A DNA stretch of 64,000 nucleotides from positions 1 to 64,000 of the forward strand of contig NZ_JAGQCH010000003.1 in the NCBI RefSeq assembly GCF_024346055.1, in the 5' to 3' direction. Origin of the DNA: Cyanobium sp. Cruz CV13-4-11. GTDB taxonomy: Bacteria; Cyanobacteriota; Cyanobacteriia; PCC-6307; Cyanobiaceae. Each line of letters starts with the position of its first letter. Position 1 is the first letter of the stretch. Below are positions 34,723 to 45,858 of this stretch, piece after piece. The notes under the pieces are model-generated. The model saw only the letters and a program-made list of their open reading frames with translations, was not told where the DNA came from and did not search any database. A program made the translations under genes and the position numbers.

Positions 34723-35745
34723 GTGCTTGTGCATCGTCCTGAGGTCAGCTCTCTGGCGCTGGCCTTCCTGCTGATTCTGGCGATGGGGATGGGAGTCCTG
34801 CTGCTGGGGCCCGCCCCTGCCCTGGCGTCGGACAGCTGTCCGCCGTCGATGGCCCCCATCCCGGGCGGCAGCTACCGGATCGGTGCGGCGGGCCGCCTGC
34901 CGGAGGAGGCGGAAGCGAAGGCGCCGGTGCGGCTGCAGCCCTTTTGCATCGCCCGCACGGAGGTGACCAACCGCGCCTTCGTCGCCTTCGTGGCCGCCAC
35001 CGGCTACACGACCCAGGCGGAGCGGCCCCTGCCGCAGGAGCAGTTTCCGGATCTCTCCGCCGCCGAGCGCCGCCCCGGCTCGGTGGTGTTCCGGCCGCCC
35101 TCCCCCGGCGAGCCCCTGGGTGAGCTCAGCTGGTGGCAGTGGGTGCCGGGGGCCGACTGGCGCCACCCCGAGGGCCCCGGCAGTTCCATCGACGACCGGC
35201 TCGACCATCCGGTGGTGCAGGTGTCGCTGGCGGATGCGGAGGCCTACGCGGCCTGGGCCGGTGCCGCCCTGCCCAGCGAGGCCCAGTGGGAATTCGCCGC
35301 CAGGGGCGGACTGCGGGATCGGGCCTTCAGCTGGGGCGACCGCTGGCGAGCGGGCCTGGCCAACACCTGGCAGGGGGAGTTCCCCGTCAGCAACACCGCA
35401 GAGGATGGCTACCTCGGCACGGCTCCGGTGGGCAGCTTCCCCCCGAATGGCTACGGACTCCAGGACATGACCGGCAATGTCTGGGAGTGGACGGCGGACT
35501 GGTACCTCCCTGGCCACGAGCGCCTCGCCGGCCAGGACGATCCGCTGCTGGCCGACCGCATCGCCAGCAGCGATCCGCGGGAGCCCGGGGTGGCCAAGCA
35601 CGTCATCAAGGGGGGATCCTTCCTGTGCGCCCCCAACTTCTGCAGCCGCTACCGGCCCGCCGCCCGGGAGGCCGAAAGCCCCGACACCGGCACCTCCCAC
35701 ATCGGTTTCCGACTCGTTTCCCCTGCCCTGACGACCCATGCCTGA
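34723..35745 (+). CDS. Formylglycine-generating enzyme, exported
   Basis: 340 residues, from GTG 34723 (GTG 34729 also possible). A signal peptide (residues 10-36, ending APALA) precedes an FGE-sulfatase domain: IPGGSYRIGA, ARTEVTNRAFVAFV, WAGAALPSEAQWEFAARGG, YGLQDMTGNVWEWTADWY and KHVIKGGSFLCAPNFCSRYRPAAR. Cys302 and Cys307 match the copper-binding active-site pair of oxygen-dependent FGEs. It converts a sulfatase active-site Cys to formylglycine. Its stop overlaps the start of the sulfatase gene by 8 nt, so the substrate is almost certainly that protein. Confidence 0.92.
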   Translation: MLVHRPEVSSLALAFLLILAMGMGVLLLGPAPALASDSCPPSMAPIPGGSYRIGAAGRLPEEAEAKAPVRLQPFCIARTEVTNRAFVAFVAATGYTTQAERPLPQEQFPDLSAAERRPGSVVFRPPSPGEPLGELSWWQWVPGADWRHPEGPGSSIDDRLDHPVVQVSLADAEAYAAWAGAALPSEAQWEFAARGGLRDRAFSWGDRWRAGLANTWQGEFPVSNTAEDGYLGTAPVGSFPPNGYGLQDMTGNVWEWTADWYLPGHERLAGQDDPLLADRIASSDPREPGVAKHVIKGGSFLCAPNFCSRYRPAAREAESPDTGTSHIGFRLVSPALTTHA

Positions 35746-38302
35746 GCGTCCCCTGAGCAACCTCGGCATCACGTTCGGCCGCCTGCTGCGGCGGCTGGTG
35801 CCGGCGTGCCTCGCCGTGGCCCTGGTGGGCTGGTCGTTCAGCGCCGTGCCGGCCCTGGCCCAGAAGATCACCGGCACGCCCGGAGCCCCCAATGGCACCA
35901 CCACGATTCCCGGCAACCAGCTGCCGGCCCCGGCGCCCCCCTTCGGTGGTGTGATCAAGGACGGGGCGCTGCAGTCGAAGCCCTGGTGGGCGCCACGGAT
36001 CACGCCTCCGGCGAGCGCGCCGAACGTGCTGCTGATCATCACCGACGACGCCGGTTTCGGCGTACCCAGCACCTTCGGCGGCGTGATCCCCACCCCTGCG
36101 ATGGAGCGCGTGGCCAAGGCCGGGCTGCGGTACAACCGCATGTTCTCCACGGCGCTGTGCTCCCCCACCCGCGCCGCCCTGATCACCGGCCGCAACCACC
36201 ACTCGGCCGGCTTCGGGGTGATCTCGGAGCAGTCGACGGGCTTCCCCGGCTACAACAGCATCATTGAGCGCGACAAGGCCACGATCGGCCGCCTGCTCAA
36301 GGACAACGGCTACTCCACCGCCTGGTTCGGCAAGGACCACAACGTGCCCGCCTTCCAGGCCAGCCAGAGCGGCCCGTTCGACCAGTGGCCCACGGGGATG
36401 GGCTTCGAATACTTCTACGGCTTCGTGGGCGGCGACGCCAACCAGTGGCAGCCCAACCTGTTCCGCAACACCACCCAGATCTATCCCTTTGAGGGCAAGG
36501 AGCCCGGCACCTGGAACCTGGTGACAGAGATGGCCGATGACGCCATCGATTACATGGCGCGGATGCACCAGATCAACCCCAGCAAGCCGCTGTTCATCAA
36601 GTACGCCCCCGGAGCCACCCACGCGCCCCACCATCCCACCAAGGAGTGGGTGGACAGGATCCACGCGATGCATCTGTTCGATGACGGTTACGAGAAACTG
36701 AGGGAGCGCATCTTCGCCAACCAGAAGAAACTCGGCGTGATTCCCAAGGACGCCAAGCTCGACCCCTGGCCCGCCGATGTGATCACGCCCTGGGACAAAC
36801 TGAGCCCGGAGGCCCAGAAACTGTTCATCCGCCAGGTGGAGGTGTTCGCCGCCTACGCCGCCTACAGCGACTACGAAATCGGTCGGGTGATCCAGCAGTT
36901 CGATGACCTCGGCAAGCTCGACAACACGCTGATCATCTACATCAACGGCGACAACGGCACCAGCGCCGAAGGCGGCCCCCTGGGCACCCCCAACGAGGTG
37001 GCCTTCTTCAACGGCCTCAACAAGCTGCCGCTCGAGGTGCAGATGAAGTTCTACGACGTGTGGGGCACCGATCTCACCTACAACCACATGTCGGCGGGCT
37101 GGAGCTGGGCGTTCGACACCCCGTTCAGCTGGTTCAAGCAGAACGCCTCCCGTCTCGGTGGCGTCAACCAGAACATGGTGGTGGCGTGGCCGGCGCGCAT
37201 CAAGGACAGGGGCGGCCTGCGGGAGCAGTTCGTGCACGTCATCGACGTGGTGCCCACGATCCTGGAGGCGGCGGGGTTGCGGGCGCCCGAGGTGGTGGAT
37301 GGGATCCCCCAGAAACCGATCGAGGGTACGAGCTTCGTTTACACCTTCGATGGCAAGAATGCCAAGGCGCCCTCAAGGCACGAGCGCCAGTACTTCGAGA
37401 TGTTCGGCCAGTGGGCCCTCTACGACAAGGGCTGGCTGTTGAGCACCAAGGTGAACCGGGCCCCCTGGGACGCCTTCGGCCCTGCCAACCCGGATCCGCT
37501 CAACAACCAGACCCTGGAGCTCTACAACCTCAACACTGATTTCAGCCAGACCACCGACCTGGCGGCCCAGAACCCCGGCAAGTTGAAGGAGATGAAGGCG
37601 GCCTTCATCACCGAGGCCAACAAGTACCAGGTGTTCCCGCTCGATGCTTCGGTGGCGGCTCGGATTGTGGCCCCCCGGCCCAACATCACCGCCGGCCGCA
37701 GCGAATTCGTCTACACCCATCCGATGGTGGGGCTGCCCCAGGGCGCTTCGCCCATCCTGCTCAACACGTCCTACACCGTGACGGCTGACATCGAGGTGCC
37801 GGCCAGCGGCGCCGAGGGCATGCTGCTGACCTCCGGCGGCCGCTTCGGCGGCTACGGCTTCTACCTGAAGAACAGCAAGCCCGTGTGGGTCTGGAACATG
37901 GTGGATCTGGAGCGCCTCAAGTGGGAGGGAACCGCGCCGCTGACGCCCGGCAAACACAAGGTGGAGTTCGATTTTGTCTATGACGGCAAGGGGGCCGGCA
38001 CCCTGGCCTTCAACGACTTCAGCGGCGTTGGCCGCCCCGGCACCGGCACCCTCAAGGTGGACGGCAAGGTGGTGGCCACCAAGACCATGGCCAAAACCCT
38101 GCCGATGATCCTCCAGTGGGACGAGAGCTTTGATATCGGCTCAGACACCCTCACCGGCGTCAACGACGCCGACTACAAACCGCCGTTCCGCTTCACCGGC
38201 AACCTCGACAAGCTCACCATCAAGCTCGATCGGCCCAAGCTGTCGCCGGAAGAGATCAGGAGCCTGGAGGCCGCCATGCGCACCAAGGCGGCGAGTGAGT
38301 GA
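35738..38302 (+). CDS. Secreted type I (formylglycine) arylsulfatase
   Basis: 854 residues. A signal peptide (about 20-42, ending PALAQ) is followed by a sulfatase domain: metal-binding Asp103/Asp104 in LLIITDDAGFG and the maturation motif CSPTR at 141-145, whose Cys is oxidised by FGE. Further conserved parts are ALITGRNHHSAGF, GKDHNVPAF and INGDNGTSAEGGP. The last 250 residues form a beta-rich, concanavalin-like extension seen in large bacterial arylsulfatases. It likely removes sulfate from organic sulfate esters outside the cell; the substrate is unknown. Confidence 0.93.
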   Translation: MPERPLSNLGITFGRLLRRLVPACLAVALVGWSFSAVPALAQKITGTPGAPNGTTTIPGNQLPAPAPPFGGVIKDGALQSKPWWAPRITPPASAPNVLLIITDDAGFGVPSTFGGVIPTPAMERVAKAGLRYNRMFSTALCSPTRAALITGRNHHSAGFGVISEQSTGFPGYNSIIERDKATIGRLLKDNGYSTAWFGKDHNVPAFQASQSGPFDQWPTGMGFEYFYGFVGGDANQWQPNLFRNTTQIYPFEGKEPGTWNLVTEMADDAIDYMARMHQINPSKPLFIKYAPGATHAPHHPTKEWVDRIHAMHLFDDGYEKLRERIFANQKKLGVIPKDAKLDPWPADVITPWDKLSPEAQKLFIRQVEVFAAYAAYSDYEIGRVIQQFDDLGKLDNTLIIYINGDNGTSAEGGPLGTPNEVAFFNGLNKLPLEVQMKFYDVWGTDLTYNHMSAGWSWAFDTPFSWFKQNASRLGGVNQNMVVAWPARIKDRGGLREQFVHVIDVVPTILEAAGLRAPEVVDGIPQKPIEGTSFVYTFDGKNAKAPSRHERQYFEMFGQWALYDKGWLLSTKVNRAPWDAFGPANPDPLNNQTLELYNLNTDFSQTTDLAAQNPGKLKEMKAAFITEANKYQVFPLDASVAARIVAPRPNITAGRSEFVYTHPMVGLPQGASPILLNTSYTVTADIEVPASGAEGMLLTSGGRFGGYGFYLKNSKPVWVWNMVDLERLKWEGTAPLTPGKHKVEFDFVYDGKGAGTLAFNDFSGVGRPGTGTLKVDGKVVATKTMAKTLPMILQWDESFDIGSDTLTGVNDADYKPPFRFTGNLDKLTIKLDRPKLSPEEIRSLEAAMRTKAASE

Positions 38303-38704: not shown

Positions 38705-39145
38705 GAGGCAACGGGCAGGGGGTTGACGGGCCGCCAGTACCGCCCAGATTCCGCCCACGCCCCATCCGCCAAGGGAACAGCCAGCAGGGGCCCATGGCAG
38801 GGCACGGAACCAACCTGGCCCTTCAGACCATCCCATCCGGGCTTTCTGGCTCGTCGTCATCACATCACAACGCCCATTCCTTCTGAGCGCAGTGTTTCAT
38901 CGCTCATCAGTCAATGACTGCTTGTCACTGACTGTTTCGCGCCTCACTCCGCTGCCCATCGATCGCAGGCTGGATGGCCCAACGCTTCAGCCCTACAGGC
39001 TGCTCACGCCATCGACCCGCCCCTCCATCACCACGCCGCCCCGCAGCTGGCCTTTCACTCCGACACGGCCTGGGCCCAGCAGCACCGCATCCGCGATGGC
39101 GAAGCGCACTGGTCGACAATTCTGGGAAGGACCTGAACCAAGCCG

Positions 39146-39994
39146 ATGGCCCTGATCAGCCGCCTGCTGCAACAGCGCCATGCCTTCTACCGAGGCCTTC
39201 TGGCCGTTCAGGTGTTGGCCCTGGTGGGCCTGCGCCTCCTGGAACAGGCACCACGGCTGGTCAGCGTGCTCTACCTCGTGATCTCCGGGGTGGGGGTCTT
39301 GCTGGATTCACCCCTGCTCCCGCACAACCGCCTCCCGCCAACGCCAACCGAATCGATGTCCCGTGCCCTCGAACGCCGCGTCCAGAAGGTGCTGCTGCGC
39401 CGGAAGCGGTTAGTCAACTACTGGATCCTGGCCCTGGGCATGGAACTGATCTGGCAGGCGGCCCTGGTGCTCAACCCCACCCTGGCCGTGCAGCTGAGCG
39501 TGATCCATCTGGTGACATGGCTCAGCCTGATGCTGATGGTGCTGTGGGGTCTGGTGAATGCCCTGGCCGAAGAACCGACCTTCACTGGCGACCTGCTGTT
39601 GGGGGCCACGGCCGGTTATCTGCTGGTTGGATTCACCGGCGGCATCGTGCTCAACTCCCTGCTGGTGCTCGACCCGGCGGCCTTCAACCTGCAGGACCAT
39701 GGGCACGCCCTGCCCGATGGCATCGGCCATGCGCTGGCCATGCTCGGGGCCGCTTTCGCCAGTCTCACCACCATCGGCAGCCCTGTGCTGAAGAACGGAA
39801 ACCTCACCAGCCTCACCGCCAGCGTGGGCATCACGATCGTGGGCCAGCTCTATCTGGCCATCCTGATCGCCGGTGTGCTGGGCAAGCCGAGGACGCTGGG
39901 CAAACCGGGCCAGCCAGCTGCCGCCCCTGAAGCCGAACACCGCCAGCTCAGCAGAGCCGCTGCGCCAATCAAACTACGTCGACCAAGGCGCTGA
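39146..39994 (+). CDS. Potassium-channel-like membrane protein with non-canonical pore signature
   Basis: 282 residues with about six hydrophobic segments (18-34, 38-55, 93-111, 115-141, 149-173, 226-246). Near the end a pore-helix-like segment (AMLGAAFASLTTIGSPVL) precedes a final helix with GQLYLAILIA, the pattern of Ion_trans_2 potassium channels. At the filter position TTIGYGD is replaced by T208-T-I-G-S-P-V. The loss of YGD suggests altered selectivity or a non-conducting relative. A charged loop at 60-92 separates the first two helices from the rest. It is 17 nt from the tolC-like gene and probably in the same operon. Confidence 0.65.
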   Translation: MALISRLLQQRHAFYRGLLAVQVLALVGLRLLEQAPRLVSVLYLVISGVGVLLDSPLLPHNRLPPTPTESMSRALERRVQKVLLRRKRLVNYWILALGMELIWQAALVLNPTLAVQLSVIHLVTWLSLMLMVLWGLVNALAEEPTFTGDLLLGATAGYLLVGFTGGIVLNSLLVLDPAAFNLQDHGHALPDGIGHALAMLGAAFASLTTIGSPVLKNGNLTSLTASVGITIVGQLYLAILIAGVLGKPRTLGKPGQPAAAPEAEHRQLSRAAAPIKLRRPRR

Positions 39995-40011
39995 TCACCA
40001 TCACCGTGGCA

Positions 40012-41802
40012 ATGCGCAACCGCGTCCTGGTCCTGTTGTGGCTCGGTCTCATCCCTGCCCAGCTGGCCCCGGCTGCGTTGGCTCGGCCCCCAGGCCAGCC
40101 CCAGAGCACCAAGCTGCTGGAGCGCAGCTGGCAAAAGCTGGATGCGCAACTGCGGGCGCTCGATCAGCTGCTCCCCAGTGAGCCCGAGCCCCCGGTGGGA
40201 AACGTGCTCAGCACTCCTGAGCTGCCCGCCAACCTGATCCGGGCCAACCAACCCGCCACCGGCCCGATCCAACCGGCCGACGCCGTGGCCGGTCCGCCCC
40301 TGGATCTGCCCTCCCCCCAGCAACTCCAGGCCGGCAGCGTCGCCAGCCTCAGCCTTGAACAGGCCCTGGCCATCGCCTTTGCCAACAGCGCCAGCCTGCA
40401 AGCCCAGCGGGAGCAGGTGGCCGCTGCCCTGGCCCGCTTCCAGGCCTCCATGGGCAGCTATTGGCCCACGATCAGCGCCTTTGCCAATGGTGGCTACGAG
40501 GGCAGCCGCAGCACCACCACCTCCAACAAACCCAACGACAACCTGGGCTTTGGCCCGCTGTTTGCACCCAATGGGCTGCTCACCCCCGGTCCCAATGGCA
40601 CATCCATTCCCACCGCCGGCCCCTTCTACGTGCCCAACGGCGGTTCCGTGGCAGCCACCTCAGGGGAATGGGGCCTGGAGGGCGGCCTGCAGCTCAATTA
40701 CGCCCTGCTGGATTTCGCCCGCACGCCCACGGTTCGCGCGGCTCGCGCCAGCTTGGAACAGCAGCGCAACACCTACGCCAACCAACTGCGCTCCCTGCAG
40801 CTGCAGGTGAGTGAGGCCTACTACTCCCTGCAGCAGGACGAGCAGCTGGTGCGTGTCTACGACGCCAACCTGCGCAACGACATGGTGATCCTGCAGGACA
40901 CCCTCGACCTCAAGCAGGCCGGCCTGGTGCCCAGGCTCGATGTGCTGCGGCGGCGCGCCATCCAGGCCGCCGATGAAGAAACCCTGATCCAGGCCCTGGC
41001 TGATCGGGCAGTGGCACGCCGGCAGCTGGCGGTGCTGCTCAACCTGCCGGCCAACGTGACCCCCACCCCCAGCGACCCGATCGTGGTGCAGCCCCGCTGG
41101 CCGCTCGATCTCGAAGCCAGCCTGCTGGCTGCCTACCGGGGCAATCCGGAGCTGGAGGCGATCCTGGCCACCCGCACGGCCCTGGCCCAGCAGAGCCAGG
41201 CCACTGCGGCAGGTCTGCTGCCGAAACTTTCCCTGTTTGCCAGCGGCGGCGGCAGCAGCTCCCAAACCAGCCTGAGCAATTTTGATCTTGGCGGCGGCGG
41301 CTGCTGCGGCTCCACCGCCCTGCCCCTCAGCACCACCAGCGGCTCGGACTGGTCGGTGGGTTTGACCTTCACCTGGCTGCTGTTTGACGCCGGCACCACG
41401 GCCGGCCAGGCCCGGGCGCTCACCAAGCAGGCGGAGGCCACCGCCCAGCAATTCGCCGCCAGCCGCAACGACATCCGCCTGAGAATCGAGCAGGCCTTCT
41501 TCAACCACGAAGCCAGCCTGGCCAAGCTCAGCTCGGCCCGCCGCGGCGTGGCGGCTGCCCTGGAGGCTTTCCGTGATGTGCGTCTGCGCTACGTAACCGG
41601 CCTCGACAGCGAGCTCAATCTCTCCAATACCCAAGACCGCCTGATCAACAGCCTGGTGCGGCGGATCAATGCCACGGTCAACGTGAACATCACCTATGCG
41701 AAGTTGCTGAAGGAACTGCTGCCGATGCCGCGCGATCCCAATCTGCCGATCCAGCCCCAACTGCAGCTGCAACTCAGCAGCAGCCCCGCCACCCAACCTT
41801 GA
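40012..41802 (+). CDS. TolC-family outer membrane efflux protein
   Basis: 596 residues from ATG 40012 (GTG 40006 possible). A signal peptide (LVLLWLGLIPAQLAPAALA) and a Pro-rich linker precede two OEP repeats. Repeat 1 includes SLEQALAIAFANSASLQAQREQ and SLQLQVSEAYYSLQQDEQLV; repeat 2 has DLEASLLAAYRGNPELEAI and RNDIRLRIEQAFFNHEASLAKL. The RYVTGLDSELNLSNTQDRLINSL end is typical. A Gly/Ser/Asn-rich insertion at about 165-220 is unusual. It forms the outer-membrane channel of tripartite exporters and is followed by two FUSC genes. Confidence 0.92.
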   Translation: MRNRVLVLLWLGLIPAQLAPAALARPPGQPQSTKLLERSWQKLDAQLRALDQLLPSEPEPPVGNVLSTPELPANLIRANQPATGPIQPADAVAGPPLDLPSPQQLQAGSVASLSLEQALAIAFANSASLQAQREQVAAALARFQASMGSYWPTISAFANGGYEGSRSTTTSNKPNDNLGFGPLFAPNGLLTPGPNGTSIPTAGPFYVPNGGSVAATSGEWGLEGGLQLNYALLDFARTPTVRAARASLEQQRNTYANQLRSLQLQVSEAYYSLQQDEQLVRVYDANLRNDMVILQDTLDLKQAGLVPRLDVLRRRAIQAADEETLIQALADRAVARRQLAVLLNLPANVTPTPSDPIVVQPRWPLDLEASLLAAYRGNPELEAILATRTALAQQSQATAAGLLPKLSLFASGGGSSSQTSLSNFDLGGGGCCGSTALPLSTTSGSDWSVGLTFTWLLFDAGTTAGQARALTKQAEATAQQFAASRNDIRLRIEQAFFNHEASLAKLSSARRGVAAALEAFRDVRLRYVTGLDSELNLSNTQDRLINSLVRRINATVNVNITYAKLLKELLPMPRDPNLPIQPQLQLQLSSSPATQP

Positions 41803-41816
41803 ACGGGCGACACCCC

Positions 41817-42842
41817 ATGGCTGCCGCCCGGCCCTCCCTGAGCCCTCTTTGGCGCAACAGTCTGCGCATCTGGCTGGCCAGCACCCTGACGATCGGGATC
41901 ATGTTCTGGTCAGGGCGCAACCAGCTGCTTCCCCTGGCTCTGGTGATGGCTGTGTTGTCCGTGAATGAGAATGACCTCACCCCCGCCCGCAGCATCGGCC
42001 AGCTGGTGGCCGGCGCCTTGATCGGCCTCCTCACGGCCATCGTGCTGCAAGAGATATCCACCAGCTGGGTCGTGCTGGGCTTGGCCATCCTGCTCACCGG
42101 CGTGCTGGTGCGCAGCCTGGGGCTGCTCAAAGGCCTGAGTACGGGGTATTTGAGCTGCTGGGCCGTGGAACTGATGCACCGCGGCAACCAGTTCAACTGG
42201 GCGACGATTTTTGAGCTGGCCTTCGCGGCAGTGGTGGGCATCTTGATGGCGCAGATCGCCACCTGGGCCCTCTGGCCGCGCCGCCCCCTGCAACAGCTCC
42301 CTGCCCTGGAAGCCCGGATCGCCAGCCAACTCGAGGCCCAGATCCTGGCCATGCAGCAGTGGCTAGATCGCGGCGGTGAGCCCCCAGCTGTCCTGCGCTC
42401 CCAGGATCTGCTGCCCAGCATTCAGCTTTTGCAACAGCTCCGCGACCAAAACCAGGGCCATCCCAGGCCCGCCCACACCCAACACCGGCTGTCGCGCTGG
42501 GCCCAGGCCGGCAGCATCTGGCGACAGGTGTTACGCCAGTGGCTGCTGCTGGAGCCCCTGTTACGGCAGCTGGACACGCCCCTGCCGGCAGGCAACCCCC
42601 AGCCCCTGCTCCGCAGCGCGCTCGCCAGCCTCGCCGGGACCTTGCAAACCAAGCCCACCGCCGCTCCAGCGCCAACCCTCTCGAGCCCAGCTCAAGATTG
42701 GCTGGAAGAAGCCGGGCATCTGGGCGCCCCCCAGCCCCTGCTGCTGGCCATCGGCCAGCAGTGCCATGTGTTGGAACAGCTCCTCCACAGCCGGGCACTG
42801 CTCAGCGCGGGCCTGACCCAGCTCTCGGCCCCGCAGGGATGA
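41817..42842 (+). CDS. FUSC-type inner membrane exporter subunit, half-size (1)
   Basis: 341 residues from ATG 41817 (a TTG at 41799 overlaps the tolC stop). The N-terminal 160 residues hold about five or six helices with FUSC/DUF2955 features (SLRIWLASTLTIGIMFWSG, ARSIGQLVAGALIGLLTAIVL), ending WALWPRRPLQQLPALEARI. A helical cytoplasmic domain follows. The canonical AaeB/FUSC exporters are about 650 residues with two such modules; here each module is on its own gene. Its stop overlaps the next FUSC gene by ATGA, suggesting a 1:1 complex. Confidence 0.75.
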   Translation: MAAARPSLSPLWRNSLRIWLASTLTIGIMFWSGRNQLLPLALVMAVLSVNENDLTPARSIGQLVAGALIGLLTAIVLQEISTSWVVLGLAILLTGVLVRSLGLLKGLSTGYLSCWAVELMHRGNQFNWATIFELAFAAVVGILMAQIATWALWPRRPLQQLPALEARIASQLEAQILAMQQWLDRGGEPPAVLRSQDLLPSIQLLQQLRDQNQGHPRPAHTQHRLSRWAQAGSIWRQVLRQWLLLEPLLRQLDTPLPAGNPQPLLRSALASLAGTLQTKPTAAPAPTLSSPAQDWLEEAGHLGAPQPLLLAIGQQCHVLEQLLHSRALLSAGLTQLSAPQG

Positions 42843-43897
42843 CCAGCCCAGCCCTGCGGGACACCCTGCGCCTCGCTGCCACTGTGACGGTGGTGAACGG
42901 CTTCGCCAATCTCACCGGAGTGCCCTTCGCGCTCTACGCCTCCCTCGCCGTGCTGAGCGTCACCGTGGGCAACTACGGCAACACCCTCGAACTCGGCCGT
43001 CAGCGCCTGGTTGGCACCGCCATTGGCGCCATGGTGGTGTTCTTCGGCTACCGGGCCTTGGGGCCGCTGCCGCTGGTGGTGGGCCTGCCACTGGCCCTGC
43101 TGCTGGCCCGGCTGATCGCCGGCTCGTTGCGGCTCACCGTGGGCTACGGGGTCTGCTGCTTTGTGGTGGTGATGGGCTGGCTGACGCATGACCAGCAGCT
43201 CGACAGCTGGATCCCCCTGCGCCTGTTATGGACCGCGTTCGGCATCCTGATGGCCCTGCTCAGCCTGCGTCTGTTCTGGCCGTCCAGAGCCCGGATCCAG
43301 CAGCGCGAGGGGCTGCTGCAGCTGCTGGTGGATCTGGGACACACCCTGTTGCAGGTGGTTCAGCACCCGCCCGAAGCGATCCAATCCCAGGCGCTACGCC
43401 GCCGCCAGCTGGGGCAGCAGATCCGTGGCCTGCGCACCAGCCTGCAGGGCCTGCGCGACCAACGCCAGGGTGCCCTGCTGGAACTGGGCACCCTGGCGAG
43501 CCAGCATCCAGTGGCACGGATGTGGGCGCTGCTGGACCAGGCCAGCGAGGCCCTGATCCTGGACCTCGACGAGCTGCGGCGCCAACCGAATGCCGACTGG
43601 CAGGGCTGGGGTCTCCAGGGCGACTACGACGCAGGCCTGGCTTTTGTGCAGGGTGTGGTCGAGCGTTTGCTGAGCTGGCGACAGCAACTGAGCGATTCAA
43701 CCCAACTACAGCCACCGCCGAGCCAGCCGCGTTCGACGCTGTCCTTGGAGGCCCTGCAGTCGCCCGAATCCAAGGCTGCCTACAGGCGGCTAAGCCCCGA
43801 GCAACTGCAACGGGTGGCCGCTCAGTTGATGGTGCTCAACCGCATGGATCACACCATGGAGAGCACCGAACGCCAATGGCGCGCCATTGTGGGCTGA
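42839..43897 (+). CDS. FUSC-type inner membrane exporter subunit, half-size (2)
   Basis: 352 residues from the ATG overlapping the previous stop. Hydrophobic N-terminal half (DTLRLAATVTVVNGFANLTGVPFALYASLAVLS ... QRLVGTAIGAMVVFFGYRALGPLPLVVGLPLALLLARL) and a helical, Gln/Leu-rich C-terminal half. It is similar in layout to the first FUSC protein but clearly diverged, so the pair is probably old. Together they would equal one full-length two-module FUSC exporter. It is convergent with the 68-residue membrane protein, with a 20-nt gap. Confidence 0.75.
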   Translation: MTSPALRDTLRLAATVTVVNGFANLTGVPFALYASLAVLSVTVGNYGNTLELGRQRLVGTAIGAMVVFFGYRALGPLPLVVGLPLALLLARLIAGSLRLTVGYGVCCFVVVMGWLTHDQQLDSWIPLRLLWTAFGILMALLSLRLFWPSRARIQQREGLLQLLVDLGHTLLQVVQHPPEAIQSQALRRRQLGQQIRGLRTSLQGLRDQRQGALLELGTLASQHPVARMWALLDQASEALILDLDELRRQPNADWQGWGLQGDYDAGLAFVQGVVERLLSWRQQLSDSTQLQPPPSQPRSTLSLEALQSPESKAAYRRLSPEQLQRVAAQLMVLNRMDHTMESTERQWRAIVG

Positions 43898-43917: not shown

Positions 43918-44124
43918 TCAGGCGTTTGGGCGCGACGACCACCAACGCTCGACGCGATAGAGTAGCATCACCAGCAGCACCACCAGCCAGAACCAAAGTT
44001 CCGGTGGGTTGGAGTTGAACAGGATCAGCAGCAGCACCACCTCGCTGACCAGCCAGGGAAATTCCTGGCGCAGCAAGGGATTGCGGATCCGGGGAAGGGA
44101 CGGCGACTTCACAGGGGATCTCAT
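43918..44124 (-). CDS. Small membrane protein linked to the HlyD gene
   Basis: 68 residues from MRSPVKSPSLPRIRNPLLRQEF. Two hydrophobic helices (about 24-36 and 41-56) are followed by a basic end. The ATG overlaps the hlyD stop (ATGA), so translation is coupled. The size recalls AaeX (DUF1656) of the aaeXAB system, but I cannot align its sequence to that family, so the link is by context only. Confidence 0.6.
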   Translation of the reverse strand: MRSPVKSPSLPRIRNPLLRQEFPWLVSEVVLLLILFNSNPPELWFWLVVLLVMLLYRVERWWSSRPNA

Positions 44125-45461
44125 GGAACGGTGTTGGGCTGGCGCAGGGAGGGCTGGTCCCAGCGCAGGTCGATCCAACGGGTGCGGAAGCCACCGGTGA
44201 GGGAGCGCAGGCCAGGAATCACATAGCTGATCGGCGAGCGCCACTCCACGTACGCATGGGTGGACACGGTGAGGCCGTCGCGGATCGGGAACACGCCACT
44301 CCCCCCCGAGAGGGTCCAGCGGTAGCCATCCACGCTGGAGAGATCGCGCTCCAGCTCGATTTCAGTGCGCATCACCGGACCGTTCTTCGTCAGCGCCTGG
44401 GCCAGTTGCGCGTTGCCGGTGGTGGTGGAGATGTCGTCTTCGGTGGCGGGCAGGGTGAGCACCTGCGTCACCTTGCCCACAATGCCGCCGAAGCGGCCGC
44501 GCTGGTTCCACTGCGGCACTACCTCCACGGGCAGCCCCAGGTGCAGCCGGCGGGCATCGGCGGGCGCGAAGTAGGACACCACCCGCAGCGGGCGGTCTTT
44601 GGCACTGGGTTGCTCAGGCCGACCGATCGTGCCCAGCCGCTGGCCGGTGCCCACGGTCTGGCCGGCGATCACCTGCAGGTCCAACATCGTGCCGTCCCGG
44701 TCGGCATGCACCTTGCCGTCGTAGGCGATCTTGGCTTCGGTCACCTGGATCTGACGCTTGAGATCGTCGATCTGATAACGACGCTGCAGGGCCTGGGTTT
44801 CGATATTGAGCTTCACCTGCTGATAGTTGGTCACCACGTTCTTCTCTTTGATCTTCACGTCATCGAGATTCACGCTGGTGCTGGTGAGCCCCTGCTCTGC
44901 CGACACCACCTCAGAAGACAGCGGGGCCACCACCTCGCGCTGGGCCAGCCAATCGAGGTTGCGCAATTTGCTGGAGTAGGTCGACTGCAGTTCGCCGTAG
45001 CGGCGGCGATCGTCGGACAACTTGGCCAGGGACGTCTCCAGGGCCCGCTTCTCGGTGAGCAGCCGCAGGGCATCGCGCTCATCGAGCTGGGCATTGTGCC
45101 GCTGCAGTTGGCGCAAGTTGCCGCGCTGCTGGTCGAGTTGGCGCTCCAGCACCGGCAGATACAGCTGCATCAGCACCTGGCCGCGCGCCACCGACTGTCC
45201 CTCCTTGACGAACACCTCCCGCACCTGGCCGCCTGCACGGGCGTTGAGGATGCCGGCGTTGTCGGGATAGATCAACACGCCCATGCCTTCCACCTCTGTG
45301 GGCACTGGCCAGAACAGGGCCCACAGAACCAGCACGCCACCCACCCCCGCCAGGCTCACACCCACCTGGCTGTGATCGCTCAGCCCGTGCCAACGCGACT
45401 GCAACCGCTGCAAGGGGCCGCGGGGCGAGGGCGCTGCAGCGGTGGGGGTGGCCTGAGTCAT
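44121..45461 (-). CDS. HlyD-family membrane fusion protein (NHLP-type features)
   Basis: 446 residues from MTQATPTAAAP. A single TM (GVSLAGVGGVLVLWALFWPVP) leads to a biotinyl/lipoyl-like barrel (GILNARAGGQVREVFVKEGQSVARGQVL), a long alpha hairpin (about 115-240), the second lipoyl half (DGTMLDLQVIAGQTVGTGQRL) and beta-barrel and membrane-proximal domains. The ending (GYRWTLSGGSGVFPIRDGLTVSTHAYVEWRSPISYVIPGL) resembles HlyD proteins of NHLP peptide-export systems. Here no ABC transporter is adjacent; the likely partners are the FUSC pair and TolC. Confidence 0.85.
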   Translation of the reverse strand: MTQATPTAAAPSPRGPLQRLQSRWHGLSDHSQVGVSLAGVGGVLVLWALFWPVPTEVEGMGVLIYPDNAGILNARAGGQVREVFVKEGQSVARGQVLMQLYLPVLERQLDQQRGNLRQLQRHNAQLDERDALRLLTEKRALETSLAKLSDDRRRYGELQSTYSSKLRNLDWLAQREVVAPLSSEVVSAEQGLTSTSVNLDDVKIKEKNVVTNYQQVKLNIETQALQRRYQIDDLKRQIQVTEAKIAYDGKVHADRDGTMLDLQVIAGQTVGTGQRLGTIGRPEQPSAKDRPLRVVSYFAPADARRLHLGLPVEVVPQWNQRGRFGGIVGKVTQVLTLPATEDDISTTTGNAQLAQALTKNGPVMRTEIELERDLSSVDGYRWTLSGGSGVFPIRDGLTVSTHAYVEWRSPISYVIPGLRSLTGGFRTRWIDLRWDQPSLRQPNTVP

Positions 45462-45858
45462 GGCGCTCAGCTTGCATGATGAAAAGGCACCTGTCAGCCC
45501 CCGCCTGCTGGGACAACCCAGGCCCAGCGGCTGCAGGAAAACGCTAATCCGGCCAACGCCGATCTGCAGCTCACCGGCCTGCGTAACCACGCCAGTGCCA
45601 GCGGCTCCGACCCCACAACCACACGATCCAAGCCCGGTGGCCCTCGTCGACGGGCTTTGTCGTGTCGGCCATGAGCAACAACACGGAGAGCTCCCAATGG
45701 AAAGGGTCCACCGGTCGAGGGGCCCCGATGGCCGCGGATGGGGGTGGAGCTGGTGATTGAGCGGGGCTCGACGGCCCCGAAGCGCTGAGAGGCGTACGAG
45801 CTGCTTTCCGACCGCCTATACGACCGCATAGAGAATCTCGCCATGGGAGAGACATCCC
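45462..45858. other. Gene-free stretch between hlyD and tRNA-Ala
   Basis: About 400 nt with no convincing reading frame in any direction and no RNA gene recognised. It must contain the hlyD promoter, but no clear consensus elements are visible. Short frames crossing the tRNA are artefacts. Confidence 0.45.

Follow-up and report, generated by a model that had tools for sequence, protein, structure and literature searches.

Picocyanobacteria carry a gene for a channel-like protein without the YGD of the potassium-channel filter that, in 10 of the 74 loci compared, overlaps a canonical GYGD channel gene; this gene pair is the main new finding of our analysis. As judged by sequence comparison, the no-YGD genes arose once; their products are a subfamily of the potassium-channel superfamily with six helices and a pore loop, and may represent a kind of channel subunit so far undescribed in bacteria. 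One member lies in the window, the 64,000-nucleotide stretch of the Cyanobium sp. Cruz CV13-4-11 genome analyzed here, where a sequence-only reading had pointed to a potassium-channel-like protein with a changed filter. The overlapping pair, and the ClC-family gene that takes the same slot in other relatives, go beyond that reading.

No part of a potassium channel is more conserved than the filter, and a clade that keeps the fold and replaces the outer filter shows other uses of this fold. The clade also offers many natural sequences for probing which filter residues matter, and it flags genes that are missed by a search for the filter motif or by the Pfam Ion_trans_2 model.

The window gene and its filter

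The window gene extends over 39146-39994 (+), from an ATG at 39146 to a TGA at 39992-39994, in an intact frame, and encodes a protein of 282 aa with six predicted membrane helices and a pore helix, in which the stretch GAAFASLTTIGSPVLKNGNLTSLTASVGITIVGQLYLAILIAGVLGK occurs. The filter, residues 208-214 (39767-39787, +), reads T208-T209-I210-G211-S212-P213-V214, where paralogues have TTxGYGD; TTIGSPV is what the ORF encodes, as the earlier reading had it, and YGD is likewise absent from all 91 members of the clade. In the AF2 model, the pore helix assigned by DSSP comprises residues 196-207 (39731-39766, +), with Gly and Ala at the cuff positions 201 and 202, and the S6 helix comprises residues 220-245 (39803-39880, +), including G233 and the clade-conserved Q234 (39845-39847).

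We compared residue columns, in the numbering of the window protein, between the 91 no-YGD sequences and 57 GYGD paralogues, all non-redundant. The clade retains the inner filter half, with T208 in 91/91, T209 in 80/91 (Ser in 9) and Val, Ile or Leu at position 210 in 81/91. The filter glycine G211 is present in 84/91 and replaced in the other seven (Ser 4, Asn 2, Asp 1). Position 212 is Ser in 44, Thr in 35, Asn in 10 and Ala and Gly in one member each, and never Tyr or Phe, as against Tyr in 35, Phe in 21 and Pro in one of the paralogues. Position 214 is Val in 72/91 and never Asp, the residue found there in 54/57 GYGD paralogues. The earlier reading had proposed checking whether the SP of the window filter is conserved. 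It is not: position 213 is variable, with Pro in just 18/91, and the clade-wide pattern is T-T-[VIL]-G-[S/T/N], without Tyr or Phe and without Asp. Filter variants among the no-YGD members of a 70-member family alignment include GSPV, GSAV, GTQV and NNSV, among others, and the ABC-linked subgroup shows filter drift (NNSV, SNTV).

The differences extend beyond the filter itself. The aromatic cuff, Tyr201 and Phe/Tyr202 in 57/57 GYGD paralogues each, is absent from the clade, which has mainly Ala, Gly or Thr at the first position and Ala at the second. Gln234 in S6 is found in 90/91 clade members, with a gap in the remaining one, and the GYGD paralogues have Pro there in 38/57. The profile of the GYGD partners aligns to Kv1.2 without gaps across the filter and S6 (HMMER alignment), and position 234, transferred through this alignment, is the residue following the S6 glycine, which work on Kv1.5 reportedly places in the cavity lining. 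L207, T208, G233 and Q234 are constant across clade subgroups with differing neighbours. The two classes share near full-length homology, an N-terminal RH..Y motif, GA..GYL in S5 and a Gly and a Tyr in S6; the paralogues differ from the clade by their own G-[YF]-G-[DG] filter (with one PGD exception), their cuff and their frequent Pro234. On these alignments, the clade has dismantled both the outer filter half (Y-G-D) and its bracing aromatic cuff, and has retained the inner T-T-V/I/L-G and S6.

The earlier reading had described the pore helix, TTIG and the helix after it as closely following Ion_trans_2 channels. This resemblance did not extend to the Pfam model: the window protein had no match to PF07885 even at E ≤ 1, and 2 of 28 clade members matched at this threshold, with a best E of 0.022, below the curated cut-off; the TxG[YF]G signature is absent, as position 212 is Tyr or Phe in 0/91 members. 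The link to channels stood when traced through the GYGD paralogues. In phmmer searches of PDB sequences, the window protein matched nothing at E ≤ 10, and the clade profile gave just two unrelated matches (E 1.8 and 2.6) against the PDB. Since there was no direct PDB sequence match, the profile of the GYGD partners was used as a bridge to known structures. By hhalign, the clade and the GYGD partners align with a probability of 99.7 and an E of 7e-26 over 225 columns, and a 28-member no-YGD profile (A1) matches, with an E of 1.3e-30, a GYGD paralogue from the window genome that is itself above the PF07885 cut-off. The GYGD paralogues in general exceed this cut-off and match Kv/K2P structures. 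The partner profile matched 204 PDB sequences at E ≤ 0.01, and the 60 listed were potassium channels by name, or Lmo2059, known as the KvLm channel. Through these paralogues, the profile comparisons place the window protein in common ancestry with canonical channels. MnhB-like and YitT-like matches in Pfam and NCBIfam scored under their cut-offs and were set aside.

The AF2 monomer model (pLDDT 85.8, pTM 0.82) has helices at residues 2-27, 29-33, 37-52, 73-109, 111-141 and 148-175, followed by the pore helix and S6, so that the order S5 (148-175), pore helix (196-207), filter loop and S6 (220-245) is present in the predicted fold, with helix 111-141 as the candidate for S4. The additional N-terminal helices agree with the extra N-terminal part noticed earlier. 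At its other end, the protein stops 37 residues past S6 (S6 end at 245 of 282), and the cyclic-nucleotide-binding domain of CNG channels gave no Pfam match at E ≤ 1 in it. Among the 50 Foldseek matches listed, 48 were K+, HCN or CNG channels, with weak E-values (best 0.096), and the other two were unrelated helical proteins (ZnT1 and gp41-5). VIA aligned the pore to Kir6.2 (Z 9.3, rmsd 2.3, 96 residues), a score to be read with caution for helical proteins, and one VIA match was an unnamed transmembrane protein. A control model of a GYGD partner (pLDDT 88.1) fared only a little better, with a best Foldseek E of 0.014; no Foldseek match reached 0.001 for either model, and we relied on the consistency of the matches and on this control. 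Channel ancestry and a predicted pore-loop fold, both proposed in the sequence-only reading, are thus supported by hhalign to the GYGD paralogues, the AF2 model, Foldseek and the Kir6.2 alignment.

In a search of 99 genomes (the window's own and relatives), intact 282-aa orthologues with 79-94% identity were found in four genomes besides the window's, and the orthologue of a further genome (G016; L006/L075) is internally deleted. Across ten pairs drawn from five close orthologues, whole-gene dN/dS was 0.18-0.56 and dN over residues 191-250 was 0.016-0.048; dN/dS ratios over short segments were noisy, some exceeding 1. The deleted copy is what could speak for a sequencing error, an isolated mutation or a pseudogene in the window. 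With the 91-member clade, the four further intact orthologues and dN/dS below 1, this explanation is ruled out for practical purposes and the change is not one isolated mutation.

Tree and taxonomic spread of the clade

Matches were obtained in 45 of the 99 genomes, and the 70-member family alignment made from these genomes contains two classes, one with a canonical GYGD-type filter and one without YGD. The window genome carries both, with two genes lacking YGD (L001, L031) and two having it (L032, L033). In a bacterial and archaeal genome collection, 123 related loci were confirmed with profile A1, and the best 80 of them were retained. Record titles of these best 80 name Cyanobium, Synechococcus, Vulcanococcus, Aphanothece, Microcystis elabens and uncultured cyanobacteria; one is from Prochlorococcus, and its copy is of the GYGD class. 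A further record (L133, CALPNT020000048.1), titled as a Bifidobacterium breve MAG, holds a no-YGD/ABC/RelA locus of cyanobacterial type and is probably mislabelled.

For the tree, matches among L171-L220 with less than 55 bits, less than 190 aa or an internal stop were excluded, leaving 209 collected sequences; profile coverage was adequate in 202 of them, and dropping near-duplicates (>96%) reduced these to 148. All 91 no-YGD sequences among these 148, some of them partial (L165, for example, ends within the filter), formed one clade with no GYGD member inside; L061, with the filter GLGYGD, was counted in the GYGD class. Support for the clade was 0.985 in FastTree and 0.953 with the filter columns masked, and the UFBoot value in IQ-TREE was 99 on the filter-masked alignment. 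The subgroup of the window, with 20 tips, was also a clade in IQ-TREE (UFBoot 100).

Within the family to which the window belongs, 167 of 392 genomes had a match to profile A1 at 1e-6; whole no-YGD genes scored at least about 177 bits in these genomes and GYGD paralogues at most about 114 bits. In a 386-genome sample of the phylum, matches of no-YGD strength all fell in this family, and phyla other than Cyanobacteriota were covered by the pattern scan of the bacterial and archaeal collection alone. In these searches, the clade has so far been seen only in the window's cyanobacterial family. Viral contigs gave 195 pattern matches, with no relative among them.

Neighbouring genes

In the window, the channel-like gene lies beside genes of an exporter locus. 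It is followed by a gene for a TolC-like outer-membrane efflux protein (OEP; 40006-41802, +; PF02321, E 4.7e-56), which starts either at a GTG at 40006, 11 nt past the channel-like stop, or at an ATG at 40012, 17 nt past it; the spacing of 17 nt given earlier is correct for the latter. Next come a FUSC/ArAE-like membrane protein a (41799-42842, +), assigned from synteny and a weak ArAE_1 match under the cut-off (E 0.015), and a FUSC-like membrane protein b (42836-43897, +; PF13515, E 1.8e-9). On the opposite strand are a small membrane protein of the exporter locus (43918-44244, −), with no Pfam family above cut-off and a position beside HlyD that is conserved in orthologous loci, and an HlyD-family membrane-fusion protein (44121-45590, −; PF13437, E 6.4e-7, and synteny).

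TolC directly follows the channel-like gene in 16 of the 19 orthologous loci of the window's subgroup, which bears out the place in an exporter locus suggested by the sequence-only reading. The exceptions are L105, L106 and L107, where the next ORF is on the opposite strand and common to all three; the 3' flank is short in L106 (~0.7 kb) and L107 (~1 kb). A further FUSC-type gene stands upstream of the channel-like gene in 13/19 orthologous loci. In the window, this upstream gene is lost; its 3' remnant is at 39088-39136 (+), within a stretch of 71 nt (39088-39158) with 98.6% identity to L091. Where most relatives have this extra gene, the window has a formylglycine-generating-enzyme-like gene and a sulfatase gene (34723-38302); in L092, from Cyanobium Cruz-8D1, the sulfatase was matched as a fragment only. 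In G016, the exporter locus is reduced (L075, 895-3632), with the channel gene internally deleted, TolC residues 1-93 only and an HlyD fragment.

The window locus, with its OEP, FUSC_2/ArAE-like and HlyD genes, resembles FUSC/ArAE (fusaric-acid/aromatic-acid) exporters with TolC and HlyD. FUSC systems are not known to contain a channel-like gene; window-type loci differ from them by having one, and 13 of the 19 relatives' loci by the FUSC-type gene upstream as well. Among the papers listed by a literature search on FUSC and TolC in cyanobacteria, none gave a link to a channel.

Neighbour counts across the clade were based on 74 no-YGD loci whose 3' flank reached 700 nt or more; six of 80 no-YGD loci fell short of this and were left out. 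A canonical GYGD channel gene follows immediately 3' on the same strand in ten of these loci, with stop/start overlaps of the form TAATG in L122, L162, L166 and L167, ATGA in L129, TGATG in L156, L158 and L168, and, read by eye from the junction sequence, GTGA in L119 and L127. The second ORF of L122, for example, reads TTVGYGD. A ClC-family gene is next in 15/74 loci (L128, L131, L136-L139, L142, L143, L145, L147, L150-L152, L154 and L169), in the slot that the GYGD channel takes elsewhere; the two are never both next, and in L169 a GYGD gene lies 3.7 kb further on. The window gene and 64 of the 74 loci have no adjoining GYGD gene.

The ten coupled GYGD genes form one clade in the tree (UFBoot 99), nested among other GYGD paralogues, and the no-YGD members of the coupled pairs fall in two tree groups. 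This nesting suggests that the pair does not stem from the duplication behind the no-YGD clade, and that the coupled GYGD genes came beside the no-YGD gene after the clade had arisen. In the 392 genomes, the ten best partner-profile matches all lie, by coordinates, no more than 36 nt from a no-YGD gene (nine by a check of the DNA), a coupling that is partly circular, as most of the sequences behind the profile came from such pairs; the next-ranking, weaker partner-like genes include lone ones (G125, G362). A canonical Ion_trans_2 gene is present in 73/73 no-YGD genomes checked, which were chosen from the 392-genome match list by matches of about 170 bits or more, yet also in 11/14 control genomes, and this co-occurrence was rejected as evidence for a partner.

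Other subgroups are found beside coxB and CtaA/UbiA genes, beside the gene for valyl-tRNA synthetase, behind a double ABC ATPase next to RelA/SpoT, or in a slot after a short-chain dehydrogenase; neighbourhoods are diverse between subgroups and recurrent within them. The second no-YGD gene of the window genome (L076, 7216-8031) and its orthologue (L077, 7564-8334) lie between genes for cytochrome-oxidase subunit II and UbiA/CtaA.

Possible roles of the protein

K+ selectivity is likely lost in the window protein, because YGD and the aromatic cuff are both gone. The reading that we favour, tentatively and as something just short of probable, is a pore subunit with a half filter and low K+ selectivity, acting alone or mixed with GYGD subunits. 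The window protein would assemble as a tetramer and contribute a two-site half filter like those of the NaK (TVGDG) and CNG (TIGET) channels, through which cations would pass with little preference for K+; the pore could be a homotetramer or, in the relatives whose genes overlap, a mixture with GYGD subunits. In the window, it might work alongside the TolC/FUSC/HlyD exporter, perhaps as a charge or osmotic shunt, the weakest step of this proposal and a guess. We favour this reading since T-T-V/I/L-G is kept and what lies above it is lost, in a way that resembles the two-site filters of NaK and CNG channels. The many transport-gene neighbours (TolC/FUSC, ClC and GYGD genes) were counted in its favour, as were the single clade, the constrained filter pattern, the near full-length homology, the predicted fold and the dN/dS values.

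Several observations count against this half-filter subunit. The filters given in PMC5052707, TVGDGNFS for NaK and TIGETPPP for CNG channels, resemble that of the clade in keeping an inner T-[VI]-G without Tyr, but they have an acidic residue after the Gly (Asp in NaK, Glu in CNG), where the clade has Ser, Thr or Asn in 89/91. The replacement of the filter Gly in seven members also weighs against it. NaK and CNG channels keep the aromatic cuff, which is absent here. Among cyanobacterial 6TM K+ channels, SynK of Synechocystis has been characterised and can be compared with the GYGD paralogues, which are 6TM Ion_trans_2 channels; a change of its filter Tyr to Ala (GAGD) resulted in no current (PMC2853561), which counts against conduction. 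The missing Ion_trans_2 match, the weak Foldseek E-values, the three loci out of 19 in which TolC is not next, and the subgroups beside non-transport genes (valyl-tRNA synthetase, short-chain dehydrogenase, RelA/SpoT) count against it as well.

One rival, possible yet somewhat unlikely, is an obligate modulatory or "silent" subunit that does not conduct alone and joins GYGD subunits, whose conductance, selectivity or gating it sets; the partner in the window genome would be a GYGD paralogue encoded elsewhere. The overlapping same-strand pairs, the single nested clade of the ten partners and, with its partial circularity, the proximity of the ten best partner-profile matches argue for it. Against it, 64/74 loci and the window have no adjoining GYGD gene; the slot is taken by ClC in 15, the coupled no-YGD members fall in two tree groups and not one, lone partner-like genes exist, and the Ion_trans_2 co-occurrence says little. 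An unlikely rival is a non-conducting membrane protein, in which a re-used channel fold would give neighbouring systems a structural or sensing subunit, these systems being the TolC/FUSC exporter in the window and ABC, ClC and cytochrome-oxidase systems elsewhere. It would fit neighbourhoods that are diverse yet recurrent within subgroups, the ABC-linked filter drift, which suggests weak demand on the filter there, and the joint reduction of the channel, TolC and HlyD genes in G016, but the constancy of L207, T208, G233 and Q234 across subgroups is not obviously required by a purely structural role. A channel that is still K+-selective despite an unusual filter has a precedent in TbIRK (GGYVG), which lacks the signature and retains a K+/Na+ selectivity >7 (PMC5429665); this counts against simply assuming lost selectivity. 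With YGD and the cuff residues gone throughout the clade, we consider such a channel very improbable here.

On a further reading, picocyanobacteria might form heteromeric channel-like complexes in which a GYGD subunit is joined by a filter-stripped paralogue that determines selectivity or gating, and in some lineages the stripped subunit might have become detached and been rewired to ClC, an ABC transporter, cytochrome oxidase or, in the window, the TolC/FUSC exporter; we regard this scenario as possible, though somewhat unlikely. If true, the heteromer reading would give bacteria an equivalent of the silent subunits known from animal channels, and with the overlapping pair it is simple to test whether bacteria, as animals do, tune channels by non-conducting or non-selective subunits. 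KvS subunits keep a GYG filter, and the clade has no YGD. The likeness is one of idea: animal KvS silent subunits are reported to be inactive alone and to modify a conducting partner (PMC12743448, PMC12113274).

In the open-access papers searched, neither such a clade nor a silent or degenerate-filter channel subunit from bacteria was described. A bacterial pore-loop protein with a departed filter is NaKTs of Tsukamurella paurometabola, which PMC5052707 describes as a non-selective, Ca2+-activated 2TM channel with the filter LPMGNGPLSP, its authors having found no other channel with such a filter. The window clade, by contrast, has many members with one common pattern. Departures also occur on the GYGD side of the family: the GYGD-class paralogues L170, L206 and L214 read TTVGFGG, with Gly replacing the filter Asp, and the distant paralogue L068 reads ASLGPGD, with Pro at the position of the filter Tyr.
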